From: an uncultured Bacteroidota bacterium | GTDB taxonomy: Bacteria > Bacteroidota > Bacteroidia > Bacteroidales > WCHB1-69 | Reading direction: 5' to 3' | DNA length: 37,311 nucleotides | NCBI GenBank assembly: GCA_902797625.1 | Contig: CADBTU010000078.1 | Coordinates: 1-37,311 of the forward strand | Shown: piece by piece, positions 28,856 through 36,681 of the stretch | Layout: the number at the start of each line of letters is the position of its first letter | Position numbering within the stretch: position 1 is the first letter of the stretch | Notes under the pieces: generated by a model | Told to the model about the DNA's origin: nothing | Seen by the model: the letters and a program-made list of their open reading frames with translations, nothing else | The model's database searches: none | Translations under genes and position numbers: made by a program

Positions 28856-29272
28856 ATGTTTAAAACACGTAAATATGGTTCCATACTGATGCTCATAATT
28901 TTGAGCATCTCTTACGTGTGCCTTACGTTAGACGCTTACTGCGAATCAAGTGATGCTATAGTACAGTGTCAATCTGTGTCAGATTCCCTTATGGTAGATG
29001 ATATAGATTTTGACTGTGTTGATGGTCTTATTTCTCCTATAATGAGACACAATGTTAATTGTGAATGTTTTAGAATATGCCCCACTGAATCTATAGCCTC
29101 GGATTACGTAAAAGCAAAGATGTCTGATGAACTTAAACTTGGTTTAGTGAGGAGATATTTACCTCAAGATGATAATTCTTCATGGGTGAATAGTGTCTTC
29201 ATGTTTCCTATAAAAATTAAAAATAATGGTATTGACTTAAAAACAAGTCTTGCCGTTATTTTTTTTGTATAG
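28856..29272 (+). CDS. Small exported protein of unknown function
   Basis: This 138-residue protein starts with a basic N-terminus and a hydrophobic stretch (about residues 8-27, ILMLIILSISYVCLTLDAY), which reads as a signal peptide. The mature part is acidic at first and holds several cysteines (near residues 38, 54, 70, 72 and 75), with NCECFRIC as the densest cluster. That would suit disulfides or metal binding. I do not recognise a family. It lies just upstream of the two PepSY-like lipoprotein genes on the same strand, but has its own region after the rpmA terminator. It could be a lineage-specific gene. Confidence 0.6.
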   Translation: MFKTRKYGSILMLIILSISYVCLTLDAYCESSDAIVQCQSVSDSLMVDDIDFDCVDGLISPIMRHNVNCECFRICPTESIASDYVKAKMSDELKLGLVRRYLPQDDNSSWVNSVFMFPIKIKNNGIDLKTSLAVIFFV

Positions 29273-29317
29273 CACATAAAAAAATAATAAAAAGTAAAAT
29301 TAGTAAGATGCTTCAAT

Positions 29318-29354
29318 GTCTCCTTGGCATCACTAATAATGTAAAGAAGGAGAC
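29318..29354 (+). promoter_or_regulatory. Leader hairpin before the two-domain PepSY-like gene
   Basis: GTCTCCTT (29318-29325) and AAGGAGAC (29347-29354) are exact complements separated by 21 bases. The right arm holds an AGGAG Shine-Dalgarno-like sequence. It lies 22 bases before the chosen ATG. It could be a leader structure of the lipoprotein mRNA, or remain from an upstream unit; no T run follows. Confidence 0.35.
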
Positions 29355-29376
29355 GAAATTAAAAAAATCAAACAAT

Positions 29377-30165
29377 ATGAAAAAGCAATTTTTTTTGGTA
29401 CTGTTAGCAATTTTAACAGTAGGATTGTTTGCTTCGTGCAACAAGATTTTCTTCCCAGAGGCTGATGAATTACCCGCTAATGCAAAACAATTCATCAACC
29501 AACATTTCCCAAATAGTAATATTCTCTATTTTGAGAAAGATGGTGCTACTTACGACGTGAAACTTTCAGGTAACGTTGAACTTGAATTTGATCTTAATGG
29601 CAATTGGACAGAAGTTGATTGTAATAATAACGCGGTTCCATCTGCTATAGTACCTGCAGAAATTATTGAATTTGTTTTAATAAATCACCCTAATAATTTT
29701 ATTGTCAAAATTTCTCGTCATAATCAACATTATGAAATTGAACTTAATAATGATCTTGATTTACAATTCAATTTAGGCAATAATAATGGCGGAAACAACG
29801 GAGGAAATAATGGAGGCAATACTCAAGTTGTTTTACCAGAAACAGCTCAACAATTTATTAGCCAATATTTTTCTGATGCCACTATTGTAAATGTTGAATT
29901 AGACGATTTTACCTATGAAGTTCTTCTCTCTAATGGTGTTGAACTTGATTTTGATATGAATGGCAATTGGCGTGAAGTGGATTGCAATACTTTCGCAGTT
30001 CCTCAAGGTATTGTGCCAGCTAATATCGCTAACTTTATTTCTGTTAGTTATCCTAATAACTTCATTGTAAAAATTGAAGTGAAAAATCAAAAATATGAGA
30101 TTGAACTCAATAATCACCTTGATCTCGTTTTTGATATGAATGGTAATTTTCTATATATTGATTAA
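29377..30165 (+). CDS. Lipoprotein with two tandem PepSY-like domains (DUF2874 type)
   Basis: This 262-residue protein has a lipoprotein signal peptide ending GLFASC. Two copies of a roughly 105-residue PepSY-like domain follow. Copy one starts LPANAKQFINQHFPNS and copy two LPETAQQFISQYFSDA, and each contains a GNW-EVDC strand and a PNNFIVKI strand. They are joined by a linker of repeated NGGN units. Related proteins are found at the cell surface or in the periplasm of Bacteroidales, with no proven function; a protease- or beta-lactamase-inhibitor-like fold has been suggested for the family. I chose the ATG at 29377 because it starts the signal peptide (MKKQFFLV); an in-frame ATG at 29308 would add 23 unrelated residues. 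Confidence 0.85.
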   Translation: MKKQFFLVLLAILTVGLFASCNKIFFPEADELPANAKQFINQHFPNSNILYFEKDGATYDVKLSGNVELEFDLNGNWTEVDCNNNAVPSAIVPAEIIEFVLINHPNNFIVKISRHNQHYEIELNNDLDLQFNLGNNNGGNNGGNNGGNTQVVLPETAQQFISQYFSDATIVNVELDDFTYEVLLSNGVELDFDMNGNWREVDCNTFAVPQGIVPANIANFISVSYPNNFIVKIEVKNQKYEIELNNHLDLVFDMNGNFLYID

Positions 30166-30231: not shown

Positions 30232-30648
30232 ATGAAAAAAGTATTGATTTTAATTTTAGCTTTATTTACAGTTAATGTTTTTGCTTCTTGCGATAGACCA
30301 GTTACTTTTAGTGATCTTCCATCAAAAGCTCAGCAATTTATCAATCAACATTTTAATGGCATTGAAGTGATTTCTGTAGTTGCTGATGATGGTCATTACG
30401 AAGTATATCTATCAGATGGTACAGAATTAGAATTTGATCGTAAGGGAGAATGGAGAGATGTTGACTGTAAAAGAAAAGCCGTTCCTGCCGCTATAATACC
30501 TACAAATATTACCAACTACGTTAAAAGTAAGTTCCCAAGCAATTTTATTGTTAGAATAGAAAAGAAACATGTTGGTTATGAGGTAGAATTAGATAATGAT
30601 TTAGATTTGAGGTTTGATAAAAACGGAAACTTCCAGAACGTTGATTAG
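30232..30648 (+). CDS. Lipoprotein with one PepSY-like domain, paralogue of the preceding gene
   Basis: This 138-residue lipoprotein has a signal peptide ending NVFASC, then a single PepSY-like domain made of two half-repeats (LPSKAQQFINQHF and VPAAIIPTNITNYV). The GEWRDVDC and SNFIVRIEKK strands match those of both domains of the preceding protein, so the three copies came from duplication. It is separated from that gene by 66 bases, with only a weak promoter-like sequence, so cotranscription is likely. Function is not known. Confidence 0.85.
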   Translation: MKKVLILILALFTVNVFASCDRPVTFSDLPSKAQQFINQHFNGIEVISVVADDGHYEVYLSDGTELEFDRKGEWRDVDCKRKAVPAAIIPTNITNYVKSKFPSNFIVRIEKKHVGYEVELDNDLDLRFDKNGNFQNVD

Positions 30649-32498: not shown

Positions 32499-33161
32499 TT
32501 AATGTTTCCAAGTTATATCTTTTTTGATAACAGCAGCTGGATTTCCTACTAATATTGCATTTTTGTCAGAATATTTAGAGCATAATATCGAACCGGCACC
32601 AACAACGCACTCATCAGGTATTTCACATCCTTTTAGAATCAAACATCTACAACCTATCCAAACGCGATTACCAATAATAATAGGTTTGTTTGTGTTAATT
32701 TTTACACATTCGTTATTGTAAATTGGGTGTTCATCAGTGTCTGTGATTAAATTTTCCCAACTCACTAAGCAATCTTTTCCAAAAGCAATCTTTTCGGCAC
32801 AAATAATTGTACTCTCAGCCGTAATGTTAAAATTTTCGCCTAAATGTAACTCTCCACGTATTGATAATTTTGAACCATGTCCAATAGTAGTTTTTCCATA
32901 AAAAAATATATCTCCGCTAACTTGCCAGATTCCTCTATTACGTTTTCTGTCATAGTGTCCAACATCTCCAAAACCAATTCGAATCATAGCTGTGCTAATA
33001 TTTTCTGGAAGATGAACGCGACCGCCTAACTCTCGAATATATGTTTTTTTAGAAATAAAAACAGGTAACTTGATTGCTATTTTCATTGGAAAATAATGAA
33101 AATTGAAACGCAAAGTTTTAGGAATAGAACATAATATGTTAAAAAAATTGTATAATTTCAT
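32499..33161 (-). CDS. Left-handed beta-helix acyltransferase (hexapeptide-repeat, WbbJ/LacA-like)
   Basis: This 220-residue protein has hexapeptide repeats from about residue 75 to 205, including GKTTIGHGSKLSIRGELHLG and PIIIGNRVWIGCRCLILKG, ending VGAGSILCSKYSDKNAIL and VGNPAAVIKK. This is the coenzyme-A-dependent acyltransferase fold that modifies sugars in cell-surface glycans. The N-terminal 60 residues are basic and less conserved. No other glycan gene lies beside it, so the acceptor is unknown. A -7 element is found about 60 bases upstream. Confidence 0.85.
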   Translation of the reverse strand: MKLYNFFNILCSIPKTLRFNFHYFPMKIAIKLPVFISKKTYIRELGGRVHLPENISTAMIRIGFGDVGHYDRKRNRGIWQVSGDIFFYGKTTIGHGSKLSIRGELHLGENFNITAESTIICAEKIAFGKDCLVSWENLITDTDEHPIYNNECVKINTNKPIIIGNRVWIGCRCLILKGCEIPDECVVGAGSILCSKYSDKNAILVGNPAAVIKKDITWKH

Positions 33162-33930: not shown

Positions 33931-34350
33931 ATGCGTAAACTTTTGTTAGTTGTTTTGTTATTGGCTTGCACTTTCTTCGCATGTGATACATATAACCATC
34001 CGAGCATACCTTATAGAAAAGTTGATTTTACCATATATCCTAACGACGTGATGTATTATAATTTGAATACTTACGGTGGGTATGAGTATTTTACGGGCGG
34101 GGTTAACGGTATAGTTGTATATAGGTTGGACGAATGGACTTTCCATGCCTATGACCGTGCTTGTTCCTACGATTGGGAAGATAAAGCTTCGTGGATAAAA
34201 GTGCATCCTAATGGAATAATGTTAATAGATTCTTTATGTGGTTCTGTTTTTAATATACTTGATGGGAATGTTATATCAGGACCAGCAAAATGGCCTCTAA
34301 GGAAATATAATGTTCGTTATGATGGTATGAGTTTAAGAATCTATGGATAA
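33931..34350 (+). CDS. Small lipoprotein with a Rieske-like fold lacking the histidine ligands
   Basis: This 139-residue protein has a lipoprotein signal peptide, with Cys18 (TFFAC) the likely lipidated residue and Cys13 the alternative. The body reads like a Rieske domain: GGVNGIVVYRLDEWTFHAYD, then ACSYDWE at the first ligand loop, SLCGSVF at the second loop, and the closing GPAKWPLRKYNVRYDGMSLRIY. A true Rieske protein has C-x-H and C-x-x-H to hold a 2Fe-2S cluster. Here the loops read C-S-Y and C-G-S-V, so the cysteines remain and the histidines are absent. A normal cluster is unlikely; the cysteines could instead form a disulfide. The gene stands alone with its own promoter and terminator. 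Confidence 0.7.
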   Translation: MRKLLLVVLLLACTFFACDTYNHPSIPYRKVDFTIYPNDVMYYNLNTYGGYEYFTGGVNGIVVYRLDEWTFHAYDRACSYDWEDKASWIKVHPNGIMLIDSLCGSVFNILDGNVISGPAKWPLRKYNVRYDGMSLRIYG

Positions 34351-34379
34351 AAAAAACGTGCCAATCGGCACGTTTTTTT
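34350..34379. terminator. Bidirectional intrinsic terminator
   Basis: AAAAAAACGTGCC, the loop AATC and the exact complement GGCACGTTTTTTT form a 13-base perfect stem. It directly follows the stop codon of the lipoprotein gene and lies one base past the stop codon of minus-strand pnp, serving both. Confidence 0.93.
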
Positions 34380-34380
34380 C

Positions 34381-36681
34381 TTAATCTATATCTGGGATTT
34401 CAGGTAAGTCTTGTTGCGGTTTTTCAGGGTTATGTTGCTTGTTACTTCTGTGATTGCCATTATGCTTACCATGAGTTGGTCGATGCCCCTCATTTTTAGG
34501 TGTACCACTCTGACGAGCAGGACGGTTGCCATTTTGTCCCTTATTTTCCTCAGCGTTTTCAGGCTTTGGTAATAAAGCTTTGTGCGAAAGTCTGAATTTA
34601 CCAGTCTTTTCATCAATTTCAATCAATTTTACTTTAATTTTGTCACCTACATTCAAGACATCTTCAACGTTATCAATACGTCTGTAAGCTATTTCAGAAA
34701 CGTGAAGTAAACCATCTGTGCCAGGAAGGAACTCTACAAAAGCACCGAAAGCAGTAATTGTTTTAATAGTACCTTCGTAAACTTCACCCACTTCAGGGAT
34801 TGTAGTAATTGCTTTAATTCTTGCAACGGCAGCATTGATATTGTCAACATTTGGAGCAGCAATATCGATAACTCCAAAATCACCTACCTCTTCAATATTG
34901 ATAATAGTGTTAGTTTCGCGTTGCATTTCTTGTATAATTTTGCCACCAGGTCCGATAACAGCTCCAATAAATTCGCGTGGAATTTGCATTTGAACTATGC
35001 GAGGAACAAATGGACGGTAATCTTCGCGTGGAGCAGGCATCGCTTCCTTAATTTTATTTAAAATAAACATTCTGCCTCTGTGAGCTTGTGCTAAGGCTTC
35101 TGCCATAACTTCTGATGATAGACCGTTAATCTTAATGTCCATTTGACATGCTGTAATACCATCTTCGGTACCACAAACTTTGAAATCCATATCTCCCAGG
35201 TGGTCTTCGTCTCCTAATATATCCGACAATATGGCATATCTTCCAGTTTTTTCGTCGGTTATCAATCCCATAGCAATACCAGATACAGGTTTTTTCATCT
35301 TTACGCCGCAATCTAATAAAGCTAAAGTACCAGCGCAAACAGTAGCCATTGAAGAACTTCCGTTGGATTCAAGAATATCAGATACCAAGCGAACAGTATA
35401 AGGGAATGTAGGATCATCGAACGGGATCATTGGTTTAAGTGCTCTATTCGCTAGATTTCCGTGTCCAACCTCGCGACGCGAAGTGCTTCCAATACGCTTA
35501 ACTTCACCTACACTATAAGGAGGGAAATTATAGTGCAACATAAAACGATTTGAACCTTCAACTACAGCCCCATCAATAGTCTGTTCGTCAAGTTTTGTAC
35601 CAAGAGTACAAGTTGTAAGAGATTGAGTTTCACCGCGTGTGAAAATTGCTGAGCCATGAGCTGATGGTAAATATCCTGTCTCAATCCATATAGGCCTGAT
35701 ATCTTCTGTGTGGCGTCCATCAAGCCTGATTCTTTCGTCAAGAATCATATTTCTCATTGCATGATAAAGAATATCGTCATAATAACGCTTCATCATTACA
35801 CTCTTCTCTTCACGTTCTTCTTCTGGTAGGGTTTCTGCAAAATCTGTATATATTTGATCAAAATCTTCATTTCGAGCTTGTTTTCCTTTGAAAGATTTAG
35901 CTACAGCATATACTTTATCGTAAAGCTCAGCCTGCATACGTTCGCGGATAGCTTCATCGTCGGTTTCATGACAATATTCTCTTTTAGGATTTGCGGAAGC
36001 AACTTGAGCTGCTAAATCTAATTGTGCTTGACACTGAACCTTTATTGCATCTTTCGCGAAATTTAAAGCAGCAACCATGTCTTCTTCCGAAATCTCTTTC
36101 ATTTCGCCCTCAACCATCATAATATTGTCCATAGACGCTGCAACAATCATGTCTATATCAGAGTTTTCCATTTGTTCAACGGTTGGGTTGACAACTAATT
36201 TTCCATCAATGCGACCGACTCTAACTTCTGATATAGGGCATTCAAATGGAATATTAGAAACAGCTATTGCTGATGATGCTGCCAAACAAGCTAAAGCATC
36301 AGGAAGATTGTTTTTGTCGCCTGAAATCAATGTTACAACTACTTGAGTTTCAGCGTGGAAGTTCTTAGGAAATAGTGGGCGTATAGCTCTGTCAACTAAA
36401 CGTGCAATTAAAATTTCATATTCTGAAGGACGCGCCTCTCTTTTGAAAAATCCGCCAGGAAAACGTCCAACAGCTGCATATTTTTCTTGATATTCCACCT
36501 GTAATGGCATAAAATCTGTACCCTCAACAGCATCCTTTTTACAACAAACAGTAGCCAATAACATAGTGTTTCCCATTGTAACAACAGCAGAGCCATCAGC
36601 CTGTTTTGCCAACTTTCCAGTCTCTATGGTTACCATACGACCGTCTCCAATGTCGAAAGTTGTTCTAACTCCTAAATTCAT
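34381..36681 (-). CDS. pnp: Polyribonucleotide nucleotidyltransferase (PNPase)
   Basis: This 766-residue exoribonuclease degrades RNA 3' to 5' using phosphate. It has two RNase PH domains; the second, catalytic one includes [19 protein letters not shown] and the acidic block [20 protein letters not shown] domain ([17 protein letters not shown]) and an S1 domain ([20 protein letters not shown]) follow. The last 60 or so residues are a hydrophilic tail rich in Asn, Gly, Lys, Pro and His, presumably disordered. Such tails vary between species and may bind RNA or partners. The gene has a leader of about 100 bases containing a hairpin. Confidence 0.98.

Follow-up and report, generated by a model that had tools for sequence, protein, structure and literature searches.

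A predicted Bacteroidales lipoprotein related to Rieske proteins carries a covarying cysteine pair at two former cluster-ligand positions

The window, meaning the whole stretch of 37,311 nucleotides that was analyzed (contig CADBTU010000078.1 of an uncultured Bacteroidota bacterium), carries near its end a gene for a predicted lipoprotein of 139 residues, which is present in one copy in the genome. The gene, its key codons, and its surroundings are as follows.

32499..33161, minus strand: divergent neighbor encoding a hexapeptide-repeat transferase (PF00132 above its cut-off), about 770 bases upstream
33931..34350, plus strand: gene of the 139-residue Rieske-fold lipoprotein (open reading frame and homologues)
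33931..33981, plus strand: lipoprotein signal peptide, by eye of the Sec type, with MRK followed at once by the hydrophobic stretch
33982..33984, plus strand: Cys18, the lipobox cysteine (TFFAC); this column is Cys in 265/266 noncanonical and 29/29 canonical relatives
34162..34164, plus strand: Cys78, at the first Cys ligand position, in loop 1 of canonical Rieske proteins (alignments)
34168..34170, plus strand: Tyr80, at the first His ligand position (alignments)
34228..34230, plus strand: Asp100, at the second Cys ligand position (alignments and residue counts in 266 relatives)
34237..34239, plus strand: Cys103, at the second His ligand position, covarying with Cys78 (alignments, covariation, and tree)
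34350..34379, no strand assigned: terminator-like hairpin with an A-run and a T-run, between the lipoprotein gene and the convergent gene
34381..36681, minus strand: convergent neighbor gene (open reading frame, clustering with open reading frames from other loci)

The hairpin folds as RNA with −17.1 kcal/mol (z −6.5). Because of the gap of about 770 bases to the divergent transferase gene and this 3′ hairpin, the lipoprotein gene is probably transcribed alone. The convergent gene encodes what we take, judging from its sequence, to be a polynucleotide phosphorylase, and every NCBIfam match of the divergent transferase lies below its cut-off. A sequence-only reading had described a Rieske-like lipoprotein with C-S-Y and C-G-S-V loops and a GPA, PL, and Y ending. 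The open reading frame of 139 residues has all of these, namely a lipoprotein-type signal, the loops C78-S-Y80 and C103-G-S-V, and the ending. At E≤10, neither Pfam nor NCBIfam has a model that matches the protein itself. Further upstream in the window lie two adjacent and mutually related open reading frames with lipoprotein-type signals (29308-30165 and 30232-30648), the first of which is PepSY-like (PF11396) and has an N/G-rich linker between two halves that resemble each other. They are preceded by a cysteine-rich open reading frame of 138 residues without a Pfam match (28856-29272).

Relatives with 60 to 87% identity to the window protein are encoded at 30 loci found by a scan with one genome per species. 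These loci are labeled Bacteroidales or Bacteroidetes, and many come from rumen or other animal-gut samples. The single-sequence query matched 80/395 genomes of the phylum. With the broad profile A3 at E≤0.001, matches occur in 99/104 genomes of the window's family, in 255/295 genomes of its order, and in 251/295 sampled genomes of its class; from the 99 matching family genomes, the 30 loci and 20 further regions were sampled. All loci with a match number 329. Leaving out L061, a TatC locus, yields 328 loci and 296 distinct proteins, comprising 29 canonical relatives with intact Rieske ligand motifs, one odd protein (L326, dropped), and 266 noncanonical relatives. The close relatives comprise 59 distinct sequences, namely L001-L031 (31, assigned by similarity), L063, L079, and 26 from L121-L169. 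In the alignment of 31 close relatives (A1), Cys18, Cys78, Asp100, and Cys103 are invariant in 31/31 proteins, with Cys18 following the signal peptide so that lipidation is predicted throughout; both Cys78 and Cys103 are retained in 59/59 close relatives. The dN/dS ratio is 0.03 to 0.06 in eight of the nine pairs computed, some of which have a member in common and three of which have a dS above 1; in the ninth pair, the window protein and L002, dS is saturated. The gene is thus under purifying selection, and its open reading frame is not a product of chance.

No constant neighbor or partner gene was found across the loci compared, and the neighbors differ by lineage; in the broader comparison, 83 of 86 loci gave a neighbor row and three did not. 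Two arrangements recur among the 31 loci formed by the window and its 30 relatives. At 17 of them (L003-L015, L018, L026, L029, and L031), the gene follows 3 to 51 bp after an open reading frame of about 640 residues, itself preceded by one of about 1000 residues, and a protein of 1250 to 1270 residues is encoded downstream where the locus is complete. In L005, the sole locus scanned of the 17, the protein of about 640 residues has no Pfam match, that of about 1000 residues has TPR repeats, and that of 1250 to 1270 residues has a TonB-plug domain. At ten of the 31 loci, the gene comes directly after that of a 262-residue protein, which is steroid-dehydrogenase-like in L016; in nine of these ten, a glycosyltransferase-type open reading frame lies ahead of it (domains likewise scanned in L016).

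Used as a query, the window protein finds, among others, six proteins with intact C-x-H and C-x-x-H motifs (L048, L050, L052, L055, L057, and L060) at E-values of 1.4e-11 to 2.8e-7 and 32 to 35% identity over nearly the full length. Three of these six were scanned and match PF00355 at 1.1e-13 to 3.6e-13. By hhalign, the close-clade profile A1 (n=31) aligns with the six canonical proteins at 99.3% probability (E 3.9e-20) and profile A3 at 99.5% (E 2.1e-23). Against the PDB, profile A3 finds by hmmsearch the cyanobacterial Rieske protein PetC3 (5cxm) at E 5.2e-6, and the best Rieske chains are weak matches for the window protein alone (E 0.32) and for the close-clade profile (E 0.27). PF00355 does not match the window protein at E≤10, and one of the 31 close-clade members touches it at E 0.057. 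An AF2 model calculated from the 31 sequences is of moderate confidence (mean pLDDT 75.6). With this model, Foldseek lists 389 matches, the best at E 1.4e-3 with a probability of 1.00 and none at E≤0.001. The best 50 of these 389 are Rieske domains, the cluster-free Rieske-fold protein NirD, or chains belonging to complexes with a Rieske subunit, with 9f5x_1C identified by its supercomplex name only. Structural realignment with VIA-align places PetC3 (5cxm) at Z 9.2 (rmsd 2.6, 93 residues), and 19 chains reach Z 8; NirD attains Z 7.4 (3c0d) and Z 7.3 (4aiv), which is not above many Rieske rows. The direct matches to true Rieske proteins show homology of the window protein with canonical Rieske proteins, and the model comparison supports a predicted fold shared with them, in agreement with the fold assignment of the sequence-only reading.

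MAFFT, hhalign, and hmmsearch (A3 against the PDB) agree on the ligand register, placing D100-S-L-C103-G-S on C-P-N-H-G-S or its equivalent. The four ligand positions, which are Cys, His, Cys, and His in Rieske proteins, are herein occupied by Cys78, Tyr80, Asp100, and Cys103, and the window protein has C-x-Y and D-x-x-C in place of the motifs C-x-H and C-x-x-H. The register rules out Cys103 as the second Cys ligand. Hence, the earlier description of a protein that has kept its cysteines but lost its histidines is correct for the first Cys ligand, Cys78, and not for the second, which is Asp100, with Cys103 standing at the second His site. The loss of the histidines extends across the family: His is found at position 103 in 0/266 noncanonical relatives and at position 80 in 31/266. 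Position 80 varies (Y, F, H, N, and others). Position 100 is Asp in 195, Cys in 65, and His in 4 relatives, i.e., in 264/266 together.

Cluster-loaded proteins are exported through the Tat system. An RR/RK motif at least 20 residues ahead of the lipobox cysteine, which is a crude test, occurs in 25/29 canonical and 3/266 other relatives; two of these three motifs are upstream of a later Met and so probably not part of the protein. A looser form of the motif is found in 25/29 canonical proteins versus 13/267, with the MRKLLL start of the window protein among the 13. This contrast fits canonical proteins that leave through Tat and a derived family that leaves through Sec. The window's genome encodes TatC, so that Tat export is possible in principle. 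It contains no PF00355 match at E≤1, which argues that no ordinary Rieske protein stands beside the lipoprotein. The predicted lipid anchor, which had been called unusual among well-studied Rieske proteins, does not set the window protein apart from its canonical relatives, all 29 of which likewise carry Cys in the lipobox column.

Cysteine pairs were scored at six sites: position 78 (a), any loop 1 cysteine between 81 and 91 (m), positions 100 (b), 102 (c), and 103 (d), and Cys77. Among the 15 pairs in the 266 noncanonical relatives, a strong positive association exists for a–d and m–c only. Cys103 is present in 215 of the 234 relatives with Cys78 and in none of the 32 without it (table 215/19/0/32; Fisher p 2e-28). 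All 19 relatives with Cys78 but without Cys103 carry Cys at position 100. For m–c, the table reads 147/14/4/101, with both cysteines in 147/266 relatives; the window protein itself has neither a mid-loop cysteine nor Cys102. Weaker, negative associations in all 266 concern m–d (p 4e-7), c–d (7e-6), a–Cys77 (3e-4), and b–d (4e-4). After clustering at 50% identity, a–d (2e-6) and m–c (9e-11) hold, and none of the four negative pairs stays below 0.05. A correlation over 4778 column pairs ranks m–102 first and 78–103 second, with column 86, itself m, set aside.

The same pairing is seen on a tree of 295 tips that was built without these cysteine columns and in which the included canonical proteins form a split with a support of 0.954. 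Changes were counted with parsimony ties resolved by a fixed rule. Positions 78 and 103 each change 15 times, and 11 of these changes fall on the same branch in the same direction versus 0.74 expected; 0/2000 random placements reach 11. Site m changes 37 times and c 44 times, with 29 shared branches versus 4.75 expected. The crosswise combinations share few branches: none for a–c (1.96 expected) and two for m–d (1.72 expected). Of the 29 canonical relatives, eight carry both m and c, and 21 carry neither. Their positions are those of the known disulfide between the two Rieske loops, and the pair thereby serves as a positive control when covariation of this kind is taken to mark a disulfide. 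The loop 1 cysteine lies eight residues past position 78 in 119/134 family members and five residues past it in 8/8 canonical relatives. The cysteine count of the domain is odd in 73/266.

Two small groups of relatives differ from this scheme. In 18 proteins (including L044, L049, L054, L058, L059, L292, L293, and L296), Cys occurs at 78, at mid-loop, at 100, and at 102, but not at 103, mostly within C-P-N in loop 1 and C-x-C-D in loop 2. Herein both ligand cysteines and the disulfide-type pair stay, and both histidines are replaced. Five of the 266 relatives (L203, L219, L266, L281, and L285) lack Cys at all five loop sites, meaning that the protein also occurs in forms that have no loop bridge.

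We regard it as moderately probable that the window encodes a Rieske-fold lipoprotein of the envelope that holds no [2Fe-2S] cluster and has a Cys78–Cys103 bridge at the old cluster site. The sequences directly show the homology, the register, the ligand changes, the pairwise cysteine covariation, and the purifying selection; the loss of the cluster, the bridge, Sec export, and a docking role are inferred from them. One native cysteine and the first histidine are missing from the window protein, which makes an ordinary cluster very unlikely. The protein descends from iron-sulfur electron carriers and would no longer bind the cluster; it would probably be exported unfolded by Sec instead of being preloaded and passed through Tat. 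A disulfide between Cys78 and the newly placed Cys103, which sit on loops that face each other, would most likely staple these loops together by a covalent bond where the cluster once did so by metal. The stapled tip may then offer a surface to which an envelope partner docks and not serve as an electron carrier. Three fates had been proposed for the remaining cysteines: the disulfide is the best supported, a different metal is possible, and a vestigial state is disfavored by purifying selection. Searches for DsbA, DsbB, and VKOR in the window's genome gave no match at E≤1, and VKOR is above its cut-off in 3/103 genomes of the family. That no such catalyst was found, though the pair is kept in all 59 close relatives, counts against the bridge. 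Further points against this reading are the metal-binding type of residue at position 100 in 264/266 relatives, the odd cysteine counts in 73/266, the weaker negative associations of other pairs, the presence of TatC, the moderate confidence of the model, and the lack of a constant neighbor that would point to a partner.

The same cysteines may instead form a working thiol site and not a static bridge, either by switching reversibly between dithiol and disulfide together with periplasmic thioredoxin-like proteins or by binding Cu(I), Zn, or a single Fe on Cys78 and Cys103, perhaps with residue 100. This is possible, if on the unlikely side. It suits the retention of both cysteines in a genome without DsbA, DsbB, or VKOR matches, and pairwise covariation suits any two-cysteine site. 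A metal site is favored by position 100, where nearly all residues are potential metal ligands, and by an engineered triple mutant of the archaeal Rieske protein ARF, which holds a single Fe with four cysteines in the Rieske scaffold (PMC2946596). However, Asp or Cys at position 100 is not linked to the cysteine pair, because these residues also occupy it in the 32 relatives that have neither Cys78 nor Cys103 (28 Asp, 4 Cys). Furthermore, position 80 drifts, and the other covarying pair, m–c, stands where Rieske proteins have a known structural disulfide.

A bolder form extends the thiol site to the whole group. Herein a thiol pair would have taken the place of the cluster at its very site. 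Throughout the group, the lipoprotein would then work as a redox-active dithiol/disulfide or bind a metal by two thiolates, and natural intermediates would exist, a proposal that is tentative and rather unlikely. Nine of the 266 relatives (L079, L180, L192, L193, L202, L207, L212, L246, and L248) have Cys, His, Cys, and Cys at the four ligand positions, and two of them, L180 and L202, also carry the mid-loop cysteine and Cys102. Judged from these residues, the nine are possible cluster proteins with three Cys and one His. The idea of a cofactor exchange stems from their match with a laboratory His-to-Cys mutant whose [2Fe-2S] cluster has three Cys and one His ligands (PMC2946596). If true, these intermediates, e.g., L207 and L248, would make a cofactor-exchange route readable in living sequences.

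It is quite improbable that the cysteine pair only stabilizes the fold and that another region, such as residues 48-57 (YGGYEYFTGG) or 67-76 (DEW to DR), forms the working surface. These two segments contain 14 of the 43 columns that are invariant in the 31 close relatives, and the residues Gly60, Ala73, Gly112, and Tyr126 are each shared by 93 to 99% of the 266 relatives. However, the 29 canonical relatives also have Ala73 (29/29), Gly112 (29/29), and Tyr126 (25/29), so these may be mere fold residues.

An iron-sulfur cluster that is still bound, by the unusual ligands Cys78, Tyr80, Asp100, and Cys103 or shared between two molecules, is very improbable. The retained Rieske fold and the invariance of Asp100 in 31/31 close relatives are consistent with it, and the laboratory mutant tolerates a His-to-Cys replacement where Cys103 stands. 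That mutant (PMC2946596) retains both essential native cysteines and the other histidine, whereas Asp replaces one cysteine in the window protein. Against this cluster also stand the missing RR/RK motif and the five relatives without Cys at all five loop sites. A purely vestigial, decaying Rieske protein is hardly credible in spite of three changed ligand positions out of four, given the dN/dS values and the matches across 99/104 family and 251/295 class genomes, and a pseudogene is ruled out by purifying selection.

Across the window's class, a protein found in most sampled genomes (251/295) has no assigned function that we found and, in the window's copy, no Pfam or NCBIfam model. In the open-licence literature searched, no paper is recognizable as being about this lipoprotein family. 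The family offers a test case for a cofactor protein outliving its cofactor, with ligand positions reused as a cysteine pair and the export motif gone, and with paired gains and losses of cysteines recurring within one group.

The nearest known systems are the six canonical lipobox proteins of the PF00355 type (L048, L050, L052, L055, L057, and L060). Like the window protein, they have the lipobox cysteine, G-P-A, P-L, and the Y ending. They differ by their C-x-H and C-x-x-H motifs together with the RR/RK motif, where the window protein has C-x-Y, D-x-x-C, and no such motif. NirD, the small subunit of NADH nitrite reductase, is cytoplasmic and contains no cluster. It shares the Rieske fold, with 4aiv, 3c0d, and 2jo6 among the structural matches, whereas the window protein has a lipoprotein signal and a conserved cysteine pair. 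The Pfam model for this cluster-free type is presumably Rieske_2, and the window protein does not match it, as no Pfam family is reached at E≤10.

The disulfide between the two Rieske loops is C144–C160 in bovine numbering. Such a disulfide is described for the respiratory high-potential Rieske proteins (PMC2946596, Figure 3 legend). Like them, the window protein has a cysteine pair across the same two loops, and many family members have the corresponding pair. The window protein does not have that pair and builds its own from ligand positions. In ARF, an archaeal Rieske protein of S. solfataricus, Cys42 and Cys61 are both essential for assembly or stability of the cluster, and exchange of both histidines (H44C/H64C) largely impairs assembly; exchange of the second histidine by Cys (H64C) still gives a [2Fe-2S] cluster held by three Cys and one His (PMC2946596). 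The equivalents of Cys61 and His44 are missing in the window protein. The ARF variants H64C and H44I/K45C/H64C resemble it by the replacement of His64 with Cys, which is the position of Cys103, but they retain Cys42 and Cys61 and bind a [2Fe-2S] cluster or a single Fe. The nine relatives with Cys, His, Cys, and Cys are the natural counterparts of the engineered H64C variant.
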